In this document: positions 40,765 through 53,149 of the stretch, in pieces
How positions within the stretch are numbered: the first letter of the stretch is position 1
Layout of the letters: each line of letters opens with the position of its first letter
Source of the DNA: Crambe crambe
Taxonomy: Eukaryota; Porifera; Demospongiae; Poecilosclerida; Crambeidae
Reading direction: 5' to 3'
Assembly (NCBI GenBank): GCA_963924555.1
Contig: OZ004596.1
Coordinates: 1,178,001-1,242,000, forward strand
Length of the DNA stretch: 64,000 nucleotides
Program-made: the position numbers and the translations under genes
The notes under the pieces: model-generated
What the model was told of the DNA's origin: nothing
Databases searched by the model: none
What the model saw: only the letters and a program-made list of their open reading frames with translations

Positions 40765-43700
40765 TTATGCCCAGGTTTCATGTATATCCCAAGTGGTGCG
40801 TCTCGTCTGAGGGTGATAATAATAAACTCGACCTTCTTCTGTTAGAGCCATCTTCCAACCTGCTCCAGGTTTTTCAGACTCAGTCTATAAATACAAAATA
40901 GATGAGGTAACATGAAGATTCCAATGTCACTATAAATAGGATTAGATAATGATGTTACTATAAATGGGATTGTACTCACAGTTTGCAGGACTTCTTGCAG
41001 ACTCCATAAGCTGATGCCAGTGTGAGAGTTGAAGTAGAAATATCGACAGCTGTTCCCGCAATATCCCCTTTCCCAGCCAGCTGGAAGCTACGGGGTACAA
41101 CATTACATTACTGTTATAACCATAACAATTCCATATAAGGTCATCTCGCATAAAGATCAATTATAAACCCCCACTAATTTTCCCCTCAAAGTCGCATACC
41201 AAAGCCAGCCACTAGTCTGAAAGAGAGCTGGCTAAGACTCACCTTGGCCAAGTCTTCAGAGGATGAATGGTTCGATTCATAACCCTCGGAGGCGCAAGAG
41301 AGTTTCCTTGAGATGCTACCTGCTCTACTGACGGGGTGTTGTGGTTTCCTGTTTTGATTGGAGTGTTGTAGCTTCATGGCCTCTCCCATCGTCATTCCAT
41401 CACTCTTACTCGTGTCGTCAAGACAAGACACCCCCATCCCAGCTAGAGCTCCTCCCACAGTGCCATTGGGGTGACCAAAACGGTAAGACTGGGAACGTGG
41501 GAGTCCTGGAGACGGAGTGATGGGAGAGGCATAACCCGAAGACGGTTGTCTTTCTCCATTACGAGGTGGAAGGGGAGGAGTTTCAGAAGAAACACTCGAC
41601 GTAGATACTTGTCGCATCAAACTGTATGACGAGTTCAGACTATGTAGTGACGTTTGCCCGATGAAGGATGATGAGGCAGAAACATTATGCTTATTGTGTC
41701 CATCCACATGAACTAGAGCCAGCCCTTCTTGGAGGCTACTCAGTGAGCTTCCAGGGTGAGGAGGAGTGCCTGCATAACTTGAAGATTCTGAATCAGTACG
41801 TAGAAGGGTGGATCTTTTGGAGTACCGTCGATTGGGGATCGTGATTGGTTGCGTCTCAGTCAGGCTGTGGCTACGAGGGATGGGGAGCTGGGGGGTCGTT
41901 GCTGGAGAGGAGGCAATGGAGGACTGATGGGACATGGCTTGCATCATCACGTAATCGTCGTCAGCATCCGAACAACTGCCAGAGCTGACTGTGCTGGTTG
42001 GACGCTGCTGAGGGACGGGGTGTCCCTTGGGAGGGAGAGGGGGAGGAGGAACGTCATTACGAGGGGGGAGTGGTGGAGGGAAGTAATCTTTAGGTGGGAG
42101 AGGTTCGAGGTTTTCTTCTTTTGTTGTGGAGATTGGTTTCTTGAGGAGTTCTGATCGTGGTCCAGCACGCTCCTTTGGGGGAGGGGGGTTGATAAGTTTT
42201 GGGGGGTCATAAATGTCCTCCATATCGTCAAAAATCCGAGGAAAGCAGTAAAGTTGAGATTTCCTTCCAGTAGCCTGGCCTCCTCCTCCTCCTCCAGTCA
42301 GCAAAAGCCTCTTAAGTGCAACATACCCACTCTCTCTCTTTCGATGGCCTTGGAGAAGTTTCTCATGGTCCAGCTTCTTCAAGATCTGCTCAATGGCCAA
42401 AACCCAGTCACAGTGCTCAGTTGGAAGTTCAGCTTTCATGACAAACTTGCTCTCTGGATTTTCAATTTCAATGAAGTAATCCACACCTTCTTTCATTTCC
42501 TTTGGATTGTTGACCATCACTTTCTGACAGTCGGCCAAGTTGAAAAGTGTCTCAGGACGACCCTTTACCAGACACTGGATCAGCCCCGAGCTTCGTAGCA
42601 CTGTCCAATGCTTCCCATAATCGATAGCAGTGAAGGTGCCAGCAAAATCTGCATTCGTACCCAGCTGTCGCTGGACTAAAGGTTTGAGAGAATTGCCACT
42701 GTCTCCTTCTGATGGGTCATAGGAGAATTCTTGACAGTCCATGAAGCTGGCCTGTATCACTGCTCCCTCACTGGTATGCAGGAGGAGAGGGGAGGGGTCT
42801 AGGGTCTTGGCGGAACTGATGGACTCCACCCACTGAAGCATGTCGTCTTTACTGGTAGCCAGAAAGGAATAACTGCCTCCATCAGAGGTCTTCACCTTGA
42901 AAATGTGGCTGAAGGTAAGAAATATTAGGTAACAAGTGCTAACTTCATAAGAAGCCATTAAACATACCTCTTTCCTTTGGTGGATAACTCAACCATACAA
43001 TCCTTAAAGTCTAGAAAACTCTCAAACTGCTTTACGCCTTCATCCTAGTAATCAGAGAAGTAATCAAAGGGCAATAAAGTCAATCTAAATGAACCATCCA
43101 GCTAGGCAACTTACTTCTTCTCTGTTGTAGCAGAGAAGAGTGGAGCCGTCCAGCACACACCAGCTACGGTGACCCTGATTACCTTCCTTACGCACCAAGT
43201 AACCGTGACTACCAAAAGAGAAAGCAGAGCCATAGGCAGGCTAGACGAGACAAGGAAACAGCATATCGGTAAATTACTGAGTTGCTAGCTCAGTATTCTT
43301 GTGGGAGCTCTGTATACTCACATTCTGTCTTACGGAGTCGATGATTTCCAGTGGGCCCTGACCAGGCATACTCACACACAGAATAAACATAGCTGTGGGA
43401 GGAGCACCAGCCTTCACGGATAAAATCTTGTCCTCAGGGTCCAGGTAGTGGGCAGGGCTTCCCGAGAATGGACCACTAACGAGTACCATCCTGTGACTAT
43501 AAAGAAAAGATAGGAGAATGGAAAAAAAGGATTGAACCACATGATTACCTTTTGGCATCCTGGTCCTGTTTGCCACACTTTGCCAAGGAAGTGGCCACTA
43601 CTTCACCCACACTTGACTTGCGGCTACACACTATAACCACACGATGCTGGAAAGGAGAGACCAGGGCTGTGTATACCCGTAACAATCCACCTCCCTTCCC

Positions 43701-45105
43701 CACCACCGACTGGTAAGAGAGTTCTTTCACTTTCATCTTCTTGCTCAGCTTGGAGTGGAGGCTGGATGGGATTAAGAAGAAACTTAGGATGAAAAAAATG
43801 TGTCTGCGTCTTCTCACATCAGATTAAACAAATTAAAGTTCAAAGGAAAGACACATCAATACAAACATTTCCAGACAACAATGACAACAGACTACCTCTT
43901 GAGGTCTCCTTCGTCCACTGGTGAAGTCAGTGACTTGTCCCCTTCACTGTAAACAAGTCACATGAACTAACTTTCTGAACTCCAAAATCTAACTTTGGCA
44001 TACTTGGCAAGTTTAGCCACCAGTGGCTCAAGATGCAACTTGATGATGTCAGAGAAACGTGGACGATCTGTTGGCCTCCGAGCCCAACAAATCTTCATCA
44101 GGTGGTACAAGTCCTCGGGGCATCCCTGAGGCTGTGGAAGGCGGTATCCCTCCTCCACTTTGGACTGGATCTATAGTGAGACACAGACAGAACAGTCATG
44201 GCAATAATCAACAGAGCATGCTCACCTCAGAATTGCTGAGAGTTGCATAAGGGACTGATCCACCAGTCAGCAGCTCATACAATACCACACCAAATGACCT
44301 GCAAATAGAATTAGGGAGAAAAGCAGCAAGTAGAAGGTTAATTAATAATTAATATAATCTAGATAACGAGATTACTATAATAATTATGACGTATAAAGGT
44401 TAATGGGCCACACCTTCCCCCCATAGGAGGAGTAAGGGAAAGTTCATGGAGTAGTCTAAAGGGGGTGGGTTGTCTCCAGTATATATGAGCATGCAATGAT
44501 AAACATAACAGTGGAAATAAACAGTGGATTTGATTACTTACATGCCTGCTTGGGGTGTTTCAGTCACCAACACAAAGAAAAAATAATCTACCACAAATCA
44601 CAACTCGGAAATATATTCATTAGTGATGCCAAACGCCTTTTCTTGGGAAGTTAAACCACATAAACAATGCAATCATGCTTCCATGGGAACAATGATGTGA
44701 GGGAGTGTCCTAGGAGGATTTATACACACATGCAGAGTGTCAGGATCTCAATCTGTATTTTGCTTTTAGGTTTAAGGGCACTCTTTTGGGGTTATTGGGT
44801 ATAAACAATTGACATGTTTATCATGGGACTTCAAATGATCTATGACTCTTATCTGCTGTGAGAGATCTCTGCAGGTCATTGGTCATTTTTCCCACCACCT
44901 TCCCACCAATAGATCACCTCAGGACAGCAGCTATTTTCATAGAGAAGGGTCAACCACCATTTTAGTGATGTAATGAAGTCCACCCCTTAGTACAGCAGAG
45001 CTAGGACAACTTTGTGGCAAGTGTGGTAACCTCTATGTAAACTTTTGGGGTGTAAATCTGACAATGGGATGTGGTCATTAACCCCCTCCTTTTGATGTGG
45101 TCAGT

Positions 45106-45179
<74 letters not shown>

Positions 45180-45665
45180 GACATCGGAGTGCCTGGAAAA
45201 GATGAGGTCCCGCAGTGTCTCTGGCGGCATCCACCGGATATTGAGGGTGTGTCTGGCAGAGGGAGGGAGGTGACATGAGGTGGTACCGTCCCAACGAGAG
45301 GACCCAAACTCTGAGAGACGTAGCTGACCATCAGCAGCCAACAGCAAGTGAGGGAAGAAAGTCAAGGTGTTAAAACAATTGAGAATGTGAACTAAAACAA
45401 TCATTTCATTACATGGTTAGTTTGAGGGCAGGTGATGTTCCTAATACCCTATAGTCTGCTATTGAAAGGGGAGACAGACTGTCATTGTGTAATTAACATT
45501 GTGGGAAGAGTGCATGTAGGAGGCTTGTTAATACCTTGCTCCTCAAGCAAGCAATCTGCATGTTGGCCAGGATCCAGGCCTCCTCTACACATGATGCACA
45601 CATGCACTCTGTATAGTATTCATTATCTATCAGATCTAACACTCACCACATGCACACCCCATGGC

Positions 45666-45711
<46 letters not shown>

Positions 45712-48394
45712 TACCCAGGGCTGGAGTTGAGGGAGTTGCAACCCCCCCCCCCCCTTTTGGTCCCAAGCTAAGCCTGTAGATAAAATGGTACAATTTGACC
45801 ATGCCTACTTGCTTAAAAGCCGTGTCTATTTAAAAACACTTGTGTTCTGCTACAGGTAATTAACTAATGTGGCTACTACAACCATCATCTAAGGCTAGTC
45901 TCATGAACCAGGGTCTGGTTACTACATCTAAGGCTATGGCCAAGAGTCTATGTTTAACATCACACCTGTGACCTTGCATGTGTCACTTCTAAGATACCTT
46001 TTGGAGTACTTTGGCTTACATTTTCAAGGTCACACATTAGATAACTCGGTGCATACTAACTGTGATTTCCTTCATGAACACCTGTGACTGCACATGTCAC
46101 TTCAGAGTTAGTTATAACACAATTTTTGAGATGCTTCACCCCCTTGCCTATACTCATGTTGTCATATAATGCACACATTTAGGGAAAATTTTGGACATCT
46201 TGGATTCAATTTGTGCAAAAGTTATGACATTATAAAATAATTGAAGCAAAAATACTAAATGTTCAAAAAGCTGCAAGTGAAGCCAACATGGGTCCTCCAA
46301 ATATCTTTCTTGCACCCCCCCCAGTGTGTGTGTTCCTAGTCCTGCACCCCCACCTATCTAAAAATCCTGGATCCAGCCCTGCTACCATTTCCAGGTTCGG
46401 CCATGCAGACAAAGTATCACATCAGAATACTTCCCAACAATTCAATACTACCAATTCTTCCCTCAGAACCAGCTCTCTAATATACATGTCTCTAGAGAAA
46501 GGATATGTTTCTGGCTGCAAGGTCACAGTGGAGCACACTTTTTTGGTGGAGGTAGTTCATAGCAGAGGCCAGCTGTTGACCATATTTGAGCACTTCAGAC
46601 TCGGACACTTCACTGTTGTGAAGCACATTCAGAAGCCGGTGAGGGATGTATTCCTGAAGGAGAAAATTCCAATTTCAATTTTTACCATAAATGGGTATCA
46701 TAACTAAGGTGAACCAGTCAAAGGTTAAACCAATGGACATTGGTTCACAAGAACATCAGTTGCCTTGCAGGAAGTGATGAGCAGACAAAAGTGAATAGAG
46801 GAACTGGACCCCTGACCAGAGGAGAGGACCAGTGAATGGCCAAATGGAGACAAACAGGTTCAGTCATAAACCCAAAAAGGAACCATATAATTCCAGAAAA
46901 CTAATGCAGGCTCTCTCTTTTTACAAAAGAAAGTTCCATTACTTCTTCCAACTGCTCATTCGTGTGTACTCACCAAAACAAGAGACGTTGGTTCTGAAGT
47001 GAGGGTCACTGCTACTAGCTGGACAATATTTGGGTGGTTCACTTTGCTGCAGGAAAAAAAAAACGTTATTTTTCTAATACAATTTTTCCTGATGGAGATG
47101 CCCGTAAGAGTACTGCAGCTGTCTGTAAATATAACCTGTTTATTGAAAATTAACTTTGTTTTGTTTGCTTGCGAGTCCAACAGAACTGAAATTATATTAT
47201 GCAACCACCACACGTGCAGGAAAAAAAAACCAGCCAGTGATATTTGAAAATTTTTATGTTAGATTTAAGCCTAGGAGTTATGAACCACATCTTAAAGGAG
47301 CTCAAGTTAGACCACCTGTGAAATCTCTTAATGTAAGTTACACACCACATACCATGAAGCAGCCATGCATAGTCCACCCTTGAAAGCATTTTGAAGAACC
47401 CTTTGCTTCACCTCAAGCTAATACAGCCTGGATTGAGAAGGATTCCAATTTCTTACAAGTGCTACCAGCAAAACAGGTGATTCGCTGGTAATTCAATATT
47501 CAATTAGTCAAAAGCCCACAGCAACCCACACTTTGTAACCAAGTTGAACAGATGGAGTTTAGTTTCTAAGTTACTCTGATGTTGAAATTAAAGCCACAAA
47601 TTCATCTTCTACTCACTCACTCCAACCAAAGATCACTCAAAGATCACACTTGTAACCAGTCTAGTCTCACACCAGATACCCAAATACGGATCAGATACCC
47701 AAATACGGTTGCTCACCTCAAGATGTCCAGTTCTCTGTCAAAGGCGTGTTTGGTGTTCTGGTTGCAGTCAGGACGCACCACTTTCACTGTCACGTCCTGA
47801 TCGTCCATCCGTCCTACAAAGACGTCACCAAATCTCCCTTTGTCCCGCACCTGTGTGAACTTAAGGAAAGAGGAAGGAACGTCCCATCCCATAACTGAGC
47901 CCAAAGCTTTCCGAGAGGCGATAATTTGAGTCTTTTTCTCCATGAGTGATTGGTGGTCTGTGTTTTCTTCATATGTGTATTCTTCACCCTATAAAAACAG
48001 GAAGAACATGGCATAATTGCTAATACCTAATCAATTAGCTCAATTAGCTAGCTGGCTAGCTTCAATGCATGCATGAACACAATAGAGTGCAGATTTCATC
48101 ACACAGCTAGCTCTCTGACCTTCAGTGTGAAACCAATAGCTTCCAGAAGCGGAGGAACTCCTGCTTTTAGCGCATACTACATTACATGCAGAGAGAGAGA
48201 CAGCATAAACCTGATTGAATGACATGCAATTTGCCCCTTAGCTGACTCACTTTGGATGCAGTCCTAACCGTGCGGAACTTTGCATTCTCGGGCTCGTTGA
48301 GGATATTCTGGACGATTCTTAGAGCAGTTCTGGTCAGCCTGAGGAATTCCTGCTCGTCCACTGCGCTTCTTAGAGAGGTCAGAGATTCTTCCAT
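40765..48394 (-). CDS. PUB / tyrosine-kinase-like / RA / PH / PH / docking / WW / WW multidomain protein
   Basis: About 15 exons, about 1,200 residues; phases were checked at the kinase-to-RA junction. Order: (1) PUB domain ([39 protein letters not shown]). (2) Protein kinase domain with [16 protein letters not shown] lysine, [66 protein letters not shown] and [16 protein letters not shown]. It is tyrosine-kinase-like, but HRD is HCD, DFG is EFG and the first loop Gly is missing. (3) Ras-association fold ([20 protein letters not shown]). (4) PH ([20 protein letters not shown] to LQWVESISS). (5) Second PH/PTB-like domain ending [11 protein letters not shown]. (6) About 380-residue Pro/Ser region with PPPLPPR motifs, YVMM and YDPP. 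(7) Two WW domains ([33 protein letters not shown]). The PUB suggests a p97/VCP link; RA and PH suggest small-GTPase and membrane recruitment. I know no named protein with this order. Confidence 0.85.
45107..45175. repeat. (CT)n microsatellite at a kinase-gene 5' splice site
   Basis: About 34 CT units. On the coding strand the exon ends at 45178 (DVW) and the intron starts GTGAGAGAGAG, running straight into (GA)n. A second (CT)n lies at about 45669-45709 in the preceding intron. Confidence 0.93.
45348..46506 (-). other. U12-type AT-AC intron in the kinase domain
   Basis: After the codon for Asn in DLAARN the coding strand reads ATATCCTTTCT, the perfect U12 AT-AC donor. No GT donor exists before the in-frame TAG. 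The intron ends CACCTTGACTTTCTTCCCTCAC: a branch-site-like CCTTGAC with its A at 45362, 14 bases before the terminal AC. Joining gives [18 protein letters not shown] in phase 0, exactly the expected kinase sequence. Confidence 0.88.

Positions 48395-48605: not shown

Positions 48606-53149
<4,544 letters not shown>

Follow-up and report, generated by a model that had tools for sequence, protein, structure and literature searches.

What kind of signalling protein results when a tyrosine-kinase fold, a Ras-association (RA)-like module, two PH-fold domains, a long Pro/Ser-rich tail and two WW domains lie in one reading frame? The question is raised by a minus-strand gene in a 64,000-nucleotide stretch (hereafter the window) of the demosponge Crambe crambe (assembly GCA_963924555.1, contig OZ004596.1, positions 1,178,001 to 1,242,000). 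The product is, on balance, probably one cytoplasmic scaffold for phosphotyrosine docking, with a pseudokinase-like module at its front and with recruitment to Ras-family GTPases and the membrane. The reading frame, the order of its domains, the conservation of its tail motifs and the alteration of its catalytic motifs are described below, followed by the alternatives.

A single reading frame with a conserved tail

Sixteen minus-strand exons join in phase into a single frame of 1212 codons plus the stop. The frame starts with an ATG at position 48394, three codons downstream of an in-frame TAG, and ends with a TAA finishing at 40765. This is exactly the span of the initial annotation, which had described one continuous, phase-consistent gene; the in-phase exons, the exact start and stop and two predicted proteins that span the junction between the kinase and the following domains (P0001 and P0032, see below) bear out that description. 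The domain order it proposed also held: PUB-like, tyrosine kinase, RA-like, PH, second PH fold, Pro/Ser tail and two WW domains. Checking each domain against Pfam gave a more divided answer. Searched as a whole protein, the query returned kinase (E = 1.8e-68), PH (4.1e-16) and WW (1.7e-16, two stretches), and PUB, RA and the second PH remained below their cut-offs.

We searched for relatives in two ways. Residues 370-790 retrieved two proteins among 7323 candidates, P0001 (1121 amino acids, aa) and P0002 (746 aa). A profile search retrieved 61 proteins among the 7991 best candidates scored, mostly represented by the large exon; they include the window's own exon (P0003), hence 60 relatives. 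In 50 of the 61 proteins the alignment stops between residues 1131 and 1144, where exon 14 ends, and in 29 it starts at 580-592, near the exon's beginning. Because so many borders fall there, exon 14 seems to be common to the family. Relatives reach as low as about 29% identity and therefore form a diverse family, so that the earlier idea of a lineage-specific fusion needs restating. We found no description of the architecture in the literature searched (listed titles and abstract openings, with most subscription journals outside scope). Within the genome the RA-PH-PH part is single-copy (five of six matches are the locus itself and the sixth has E = 0.225), and the best other kinases are 36% identical across the kinase domain.

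The tail was aligned over 61 rows, the query gene and its 60 relatives, and its tyrosine motifs are conserved at the frequencies given in Table 1. Pro863 and Pro864 are each kept in 60 of 60 rows, and position 815 belongs to a Y[D/E]xP in at least 46 of the 59 ungapped rows. We take the YxxM at Y901 to be a site for the SH2 domains of p85, the YDxP at Y815 to be a Crk/Nck-type site and PPPLPPR to be an SH3 site. Judged from this conservation, the tail probably forms a docking platform, a feature that is new relative to the initial annotation. Its broader claim of a signalling scaffold is strengthened by the conserved YxxM, Y[D/E]xP and SH3 motifs.

These observations suggest the following scheme. 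The degraded tyrosine-kinase fold near the N-terminus would serve as a pseudokinase with a regulatory or recruiting role; weak kinase activity is the most one would expect of it. The RA-like module and the PH domain, to judge from their folds, would bring the protein to a Ras-family GTPase and to the membrane. A partner kinase would phosphorylate the conserved tail tyrosines; pYxxM may then recruit PI3-kinase p85, and Y[D/E]xP adaptors of the Crk/Nck type, in both cases via SH2 domains. PPPLPPR/K would recruit SH3 proteins, and the WW domains would bind a proline-rich partner.

Candidate readers of such sites exist: the genome contains 135 SH2 matches, counted as exons rather than genes, and contig C12 has a p85 inter-SH2 match with an SH2 match about 1 kb away. 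There are also 17 IRS-type PTB matches elsewhere in the genome; the query is therefore not its only possible docking protein. SH2 matches are densely clustered at G000:C5 1417826-1522148, C9 1487746-1614367 and C12 1751539-1843203, which suggests tandem expansion of SH2 genes. At G000:C14:3697948-3702252 (-), three SH2-like matches recur at a spacing of exactly 2058 bases within a giant, repetitive open frame (9513 codons) whose SH2 similarity is only weak.

Table 1. Features of the gene, with positions counted in the window.
Feature	Positions	Strand	Basis
Whole gene, 16 coding exons, 1212 aa	40765..48394	-	exons joined in phase
PUB-like domain, aa 20-82, exons 1-3	47944..48337	-	Pfam PUB 27.5 bits, E = 3e-6
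Ser47 codon at the PUB cornerstone Asn position (HOIP N102; PNGase N58 by counting)	48254..48256	-	PNGase alignment
Tyrosine-kinase domain, aa 112-356	44039..47856	-	Pfam E = 1.8e-68
HCD motif	46530-46522	-	kinase motif reading
Intron 5, AT-AC (U12-type), within the kinase catalytic loop	45348..46506	-	splice ends and genomic U12 small nuclear RNA match
EFG motif	45311-45303	-	kinase motif reading
RA-like domain, aa 407-515	43238..43697	-	Pfam segment scans, hhalign, shuffles, low-confidence P0032 model
PH domain 1, aa 526-616	42806..43207	-	Pfam PH
Second PH-fold domain (PH or PTB), about aa 640-760	42374..42736	-	Pfam PH 18.4 bits; P0032 model
SGYVALKRL motif, Tyr777	42305..42331	-	kept in 61/61 rows
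Pro/Ser-rich tail	41243..42304	-	sequence reading
EDIYDPP motif, Tyr815	42200..42220	-	kept in 60/60 readable rows of 61
PPPLPPR SH3-type motif	42059..42079	-	61-row alignment
PPPLPPK SH3-type motif	42026..42046	-	61-row alignment
DDDYVMMQ, YxxM-type motif	41939..41962	-	Y901 and M904 each in 59/60 readable rows of 61
WW domain 1, aa 1138-1170	40989..41087	-	Pfam WW
WW domain 2, aa 1179-1206	40786..40869	-	Pfam WW

The RA-like module and the second PH fold

RA was not reported at E <= 10 in the Pfam scan of the whole protein. When the RA segment was scanned alone, PF00788 was the top match in three of three sequences, at 14.1, 17.1 and 16.2 bits against a cut-off of 21. Profile comparison supports the assignment: against the translations of six of the eight RA matches in this genome, hhalign gave E = 1.4e-4 with a probability of 52%, and none of 200 column shuffles reached the real score. 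A separate RA gene in this genome (L013, G000:C6:9001377-9001628) resembles the Grb7/RIAM type by eye.

The second PH-like domain reaches 18.4 bits against a Pfam cut-off of 25.1, and shows a PH fold in a model of P0032, whose alignment runs from the kinase C-lobe through RA and PH to the second PH fold (query residues 293-793). In the second of two models of P0032 only, the order of strands and helices in the RA part fits an RA domain, at low confidence. Structural matches of the P0032 models include the PH-PTB units of IRS-1 and Dok7. The second-look match lists cover model residues 337-485 and 226-337 and barely test the RA part; none of the structural matches listed is an RA-PH chain of Grb10 or RIAM, which excludes nothing.

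Alternative readings of the kinase, the N-terminus and the gene

A first alternative concerns the start of the protein. The PUB-like exons may be missing from most isoforms or relatives, the conserved protein starting near Met83; this is possible, though we would not expect it, and it is compatible with the other readings. P0001 begins there as called, and none of 192 candidates retrieved with residues 1-150 reached E <= 1e-3. However, the start of P0001 is the gene caller's choice, and the search with this N-terminal segment was insensitive: having failed to return P0001, whose alignment begins at residue 88, it says little on PUB in relatives. The PUB match, moreover, runs in phase over two splice junctions.

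The next alternative is a catalytically active tyrosine kinase whose substrate, in cis, would be its own tail, so that writer and docking platform would share one chain and RA and PH would set place and time. Tyrosine kinases carry the motifs HxDLAARN, xWMxPE and CWxxxPxxRPxF. The query retains this style (HCDLAARN and RWMPPE) and, by these motifs and its Pfam match, belongs to the tyrosine-kinase group; its best PDB matches (best 60 of 2693) are EGFR, TYK2, a Src-Abl ancestor and ABL. The elements with known roles in kinases are kept in part: the protein retains Lys136, the Glu of alpha-C and, within HCD, the catalytic Asp; HRD and DFG, intact in a competent tyrosine kinase, have become HCD and EFG, DKGRFG stands at the glycine loop, and the activation segment has no Tyr. 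P0001 has HCD and DFS (by eye), the same DFG motif thus being altered differently in the two proteins. An active enzyme would agree with the retained residues, with the overall motif style, with the Asp of DFG kept in P0001 and with an identity to P0001 in the kinase (48%) near that in RA (52%). It is nonetheless unlikely, given EFG in the query, DFS in P0001, a glycine loop changed in both (by eye) and an activation segment devoid of Tyr; EFG for DFG, in particular, weakens the earlier reading of an active kinase. Most likely, as far as these motifs indicate, the fold works as a pseudokinase in regulation or recruitment, with weak kinase activity at best.

The initial annotation had coupled the protein to p97 through PUB. 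The Pfam PUB match lies at 27.5 bits (28 bits in the genome search), below the curated cut-off of 34.3. In an alignment with PNGase, Ser47 stands opposite the cornerstone Asn of the PUB peptide pocket; this match has E = 0.55, yet it is ungapped as far as Ser47. PMC4017264 reports that HOIP no longer binds OTULIN once its Asn102 is changed to Asp or Gln, and that PNGase has the equivalent Asn. Among four other PUB matches in the genome, the Asn is present in three and replaced by Ser in one, L004 (G000:C16:5377194-5377331), itself below the cut-off (by eye). Because the match is below the Pfam cut-off and Ser47 replaces the cornerstone Asn, p97 coupling appears doubtful; it is the weakest part of the first reading and lies outside our favoured explanation. 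A PUB tether to the p97/VCP tail, linking tyrosine signalling with protein quality control, would find support in the E-value of the Pfam match (3e-6), and phosphorylation of p97 Tyr805 by Src, reported to abolish PUB/PUL binding (PMC5389986), would make a pairing of PUB and tyrosine kinase sensible. With Ser47, the sub-threshold score and a P0001 that, as called, begins at the equivalent of about residue 85, we consider such a tether improbable. An AFG2A (SPATA5) homologue lies upstream on the same strand (window about 48609-51234 (-)) and ends roughly 200 bases before the ATG (by eye). We rejected this neighbour as support for p97 coupling: AFG2A is not p97, and adjacency says little.

Finally, two adjacent genes (a kinase and an RA-PH-WW gene) could have been joined in error. 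The evidence against this comes from the genomic reading frame and from two predicted proteins, P0001 and P0032. Both proteins span the junction, and the exons join in phase. P0001, a predicted protein from elsewhere whose alignment covers query residues 88-1211, has the same domain order from the kinase through WW-WW, which makes two genes very improbable; its locus leaves little room for introns, because 1121 codons occupy most of its longest contig of 4048 bases. Fourteen of the 15 introns of the query are GT-AG. The remaining one, intron 5, has AT-AC ends (ATATCCTTT at the 5' end and CCTCAC at the 3' end); once it is removed, HCDLAARN continues directly into the following kinase segment, matching kinase anatomy, and the same genome has a U12 small nuclear RNA match of 107 bits. 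A branch-like site, TTTTAAC, lies close to the 3' end of this intron, and a (GA)n microsatellite (window about 45108-45177) begins at the donor site of intron 6. A chance chain of open reading frames is ruled out by the Pfam matches and the 60 relatives. The 15 introns likewise rule out a prokaryotic or viral origin, together with pattern matches of which tblastn confirmed none (15 in GTDB genome contigs, 13 in IMG/VR viral contigs).

Known systems and biological meaning

The architecture shares parts with several known systems. Like IRS/DOK proteins, the query has a PH domain followed by a second domain of the PH superfold and a long tail in which YxxM-type and SH3-type sites are conserved; unlike them, it has a kinase and an RA-like module in front and WW domains behind, and the Pfam scans gave its second PH-fold domain no match to the IRS PTB family. 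The RA-like module directly before PH recalls Grb7/10/14 and RIAM/lamellipodin, which differ in having no tyrosine kinase in front; SH2, the C-terminal hallmark of Grb7/10/14, is absent among the 14 families in the Pfam scan of the query at E <= 10. Choanoflagellate HMTK kinases (PMC3082566) also join a tyrosine kinase to a domain of the PTB/PH type, and their HRD motif is altered too. They have His-Met for His-Arg-Asp and PTB before the kinase, whereas the query has HCD and its PH folds after the kinase. With PNGase, UBXD1 and HOIP the query shares the PUB-like match, but it has Ser at the cornerstone Asn and no glycanase, UBX or RING family among its Pfam families. The main text of PMC8662651, on holozoan tyrosine kinases, contains neither 'WW domain' nor 'Ras-association'.

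Several points weigh against the docking scaffold. The RA-like domain is below the Pfam cut-off, its hhalign probability is no higher than 52%, and its alignment profile has no match to PDB sequences at E <= 10. The two AlphaFold models of P0032 have mean pLDDT values of 57.3 and 54.1, and FARP and centaurin are likewise among their tandem matches, so that they do not single out an IRS-like kinship. About 53 of the 354 tail positions (784-1137) are at least 90% conserved, many of them Pro or Ser, and the tyrosines are thus not alone. A literature search combining YxxM, p85 and IRS-1 found no paper. The p85 inter-SH2 match is barely above its cut-off (31.7 versus 31.5), and the same search also matched, below cut-off, one of 14 control genomes, an archaeon. 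EFG may permit some catalysis, and kinase active sites were read in two sequences only, the query and P0001. The support is drawn from sequences and models.

PMC7260276 reports no Dof or Frs2, the docking proteins of FGFR, in the sponges examined, and records Grb2 and Crkl in the sponge Amphimedon; another docking platform is therefore worth testing. A wider view is that the protein represents an old, broadly kept early-animal family, in which a kinase and a docking platform in one Ras- and membrane-recruited chain would form a self-contained, receptor-independent, IRS-like node, with PUB in at least this species; we hold this to be rather unlikely. If the docking scaffold is real, one protein, probably of an early animal lineage, would have come to combine the fold of a tyrosine kinase with a docking tail like that of IRS/DOK proteins, and Y815 and Y901 would provide two precise sites for probing the wiring of PI3-kinase signalling.

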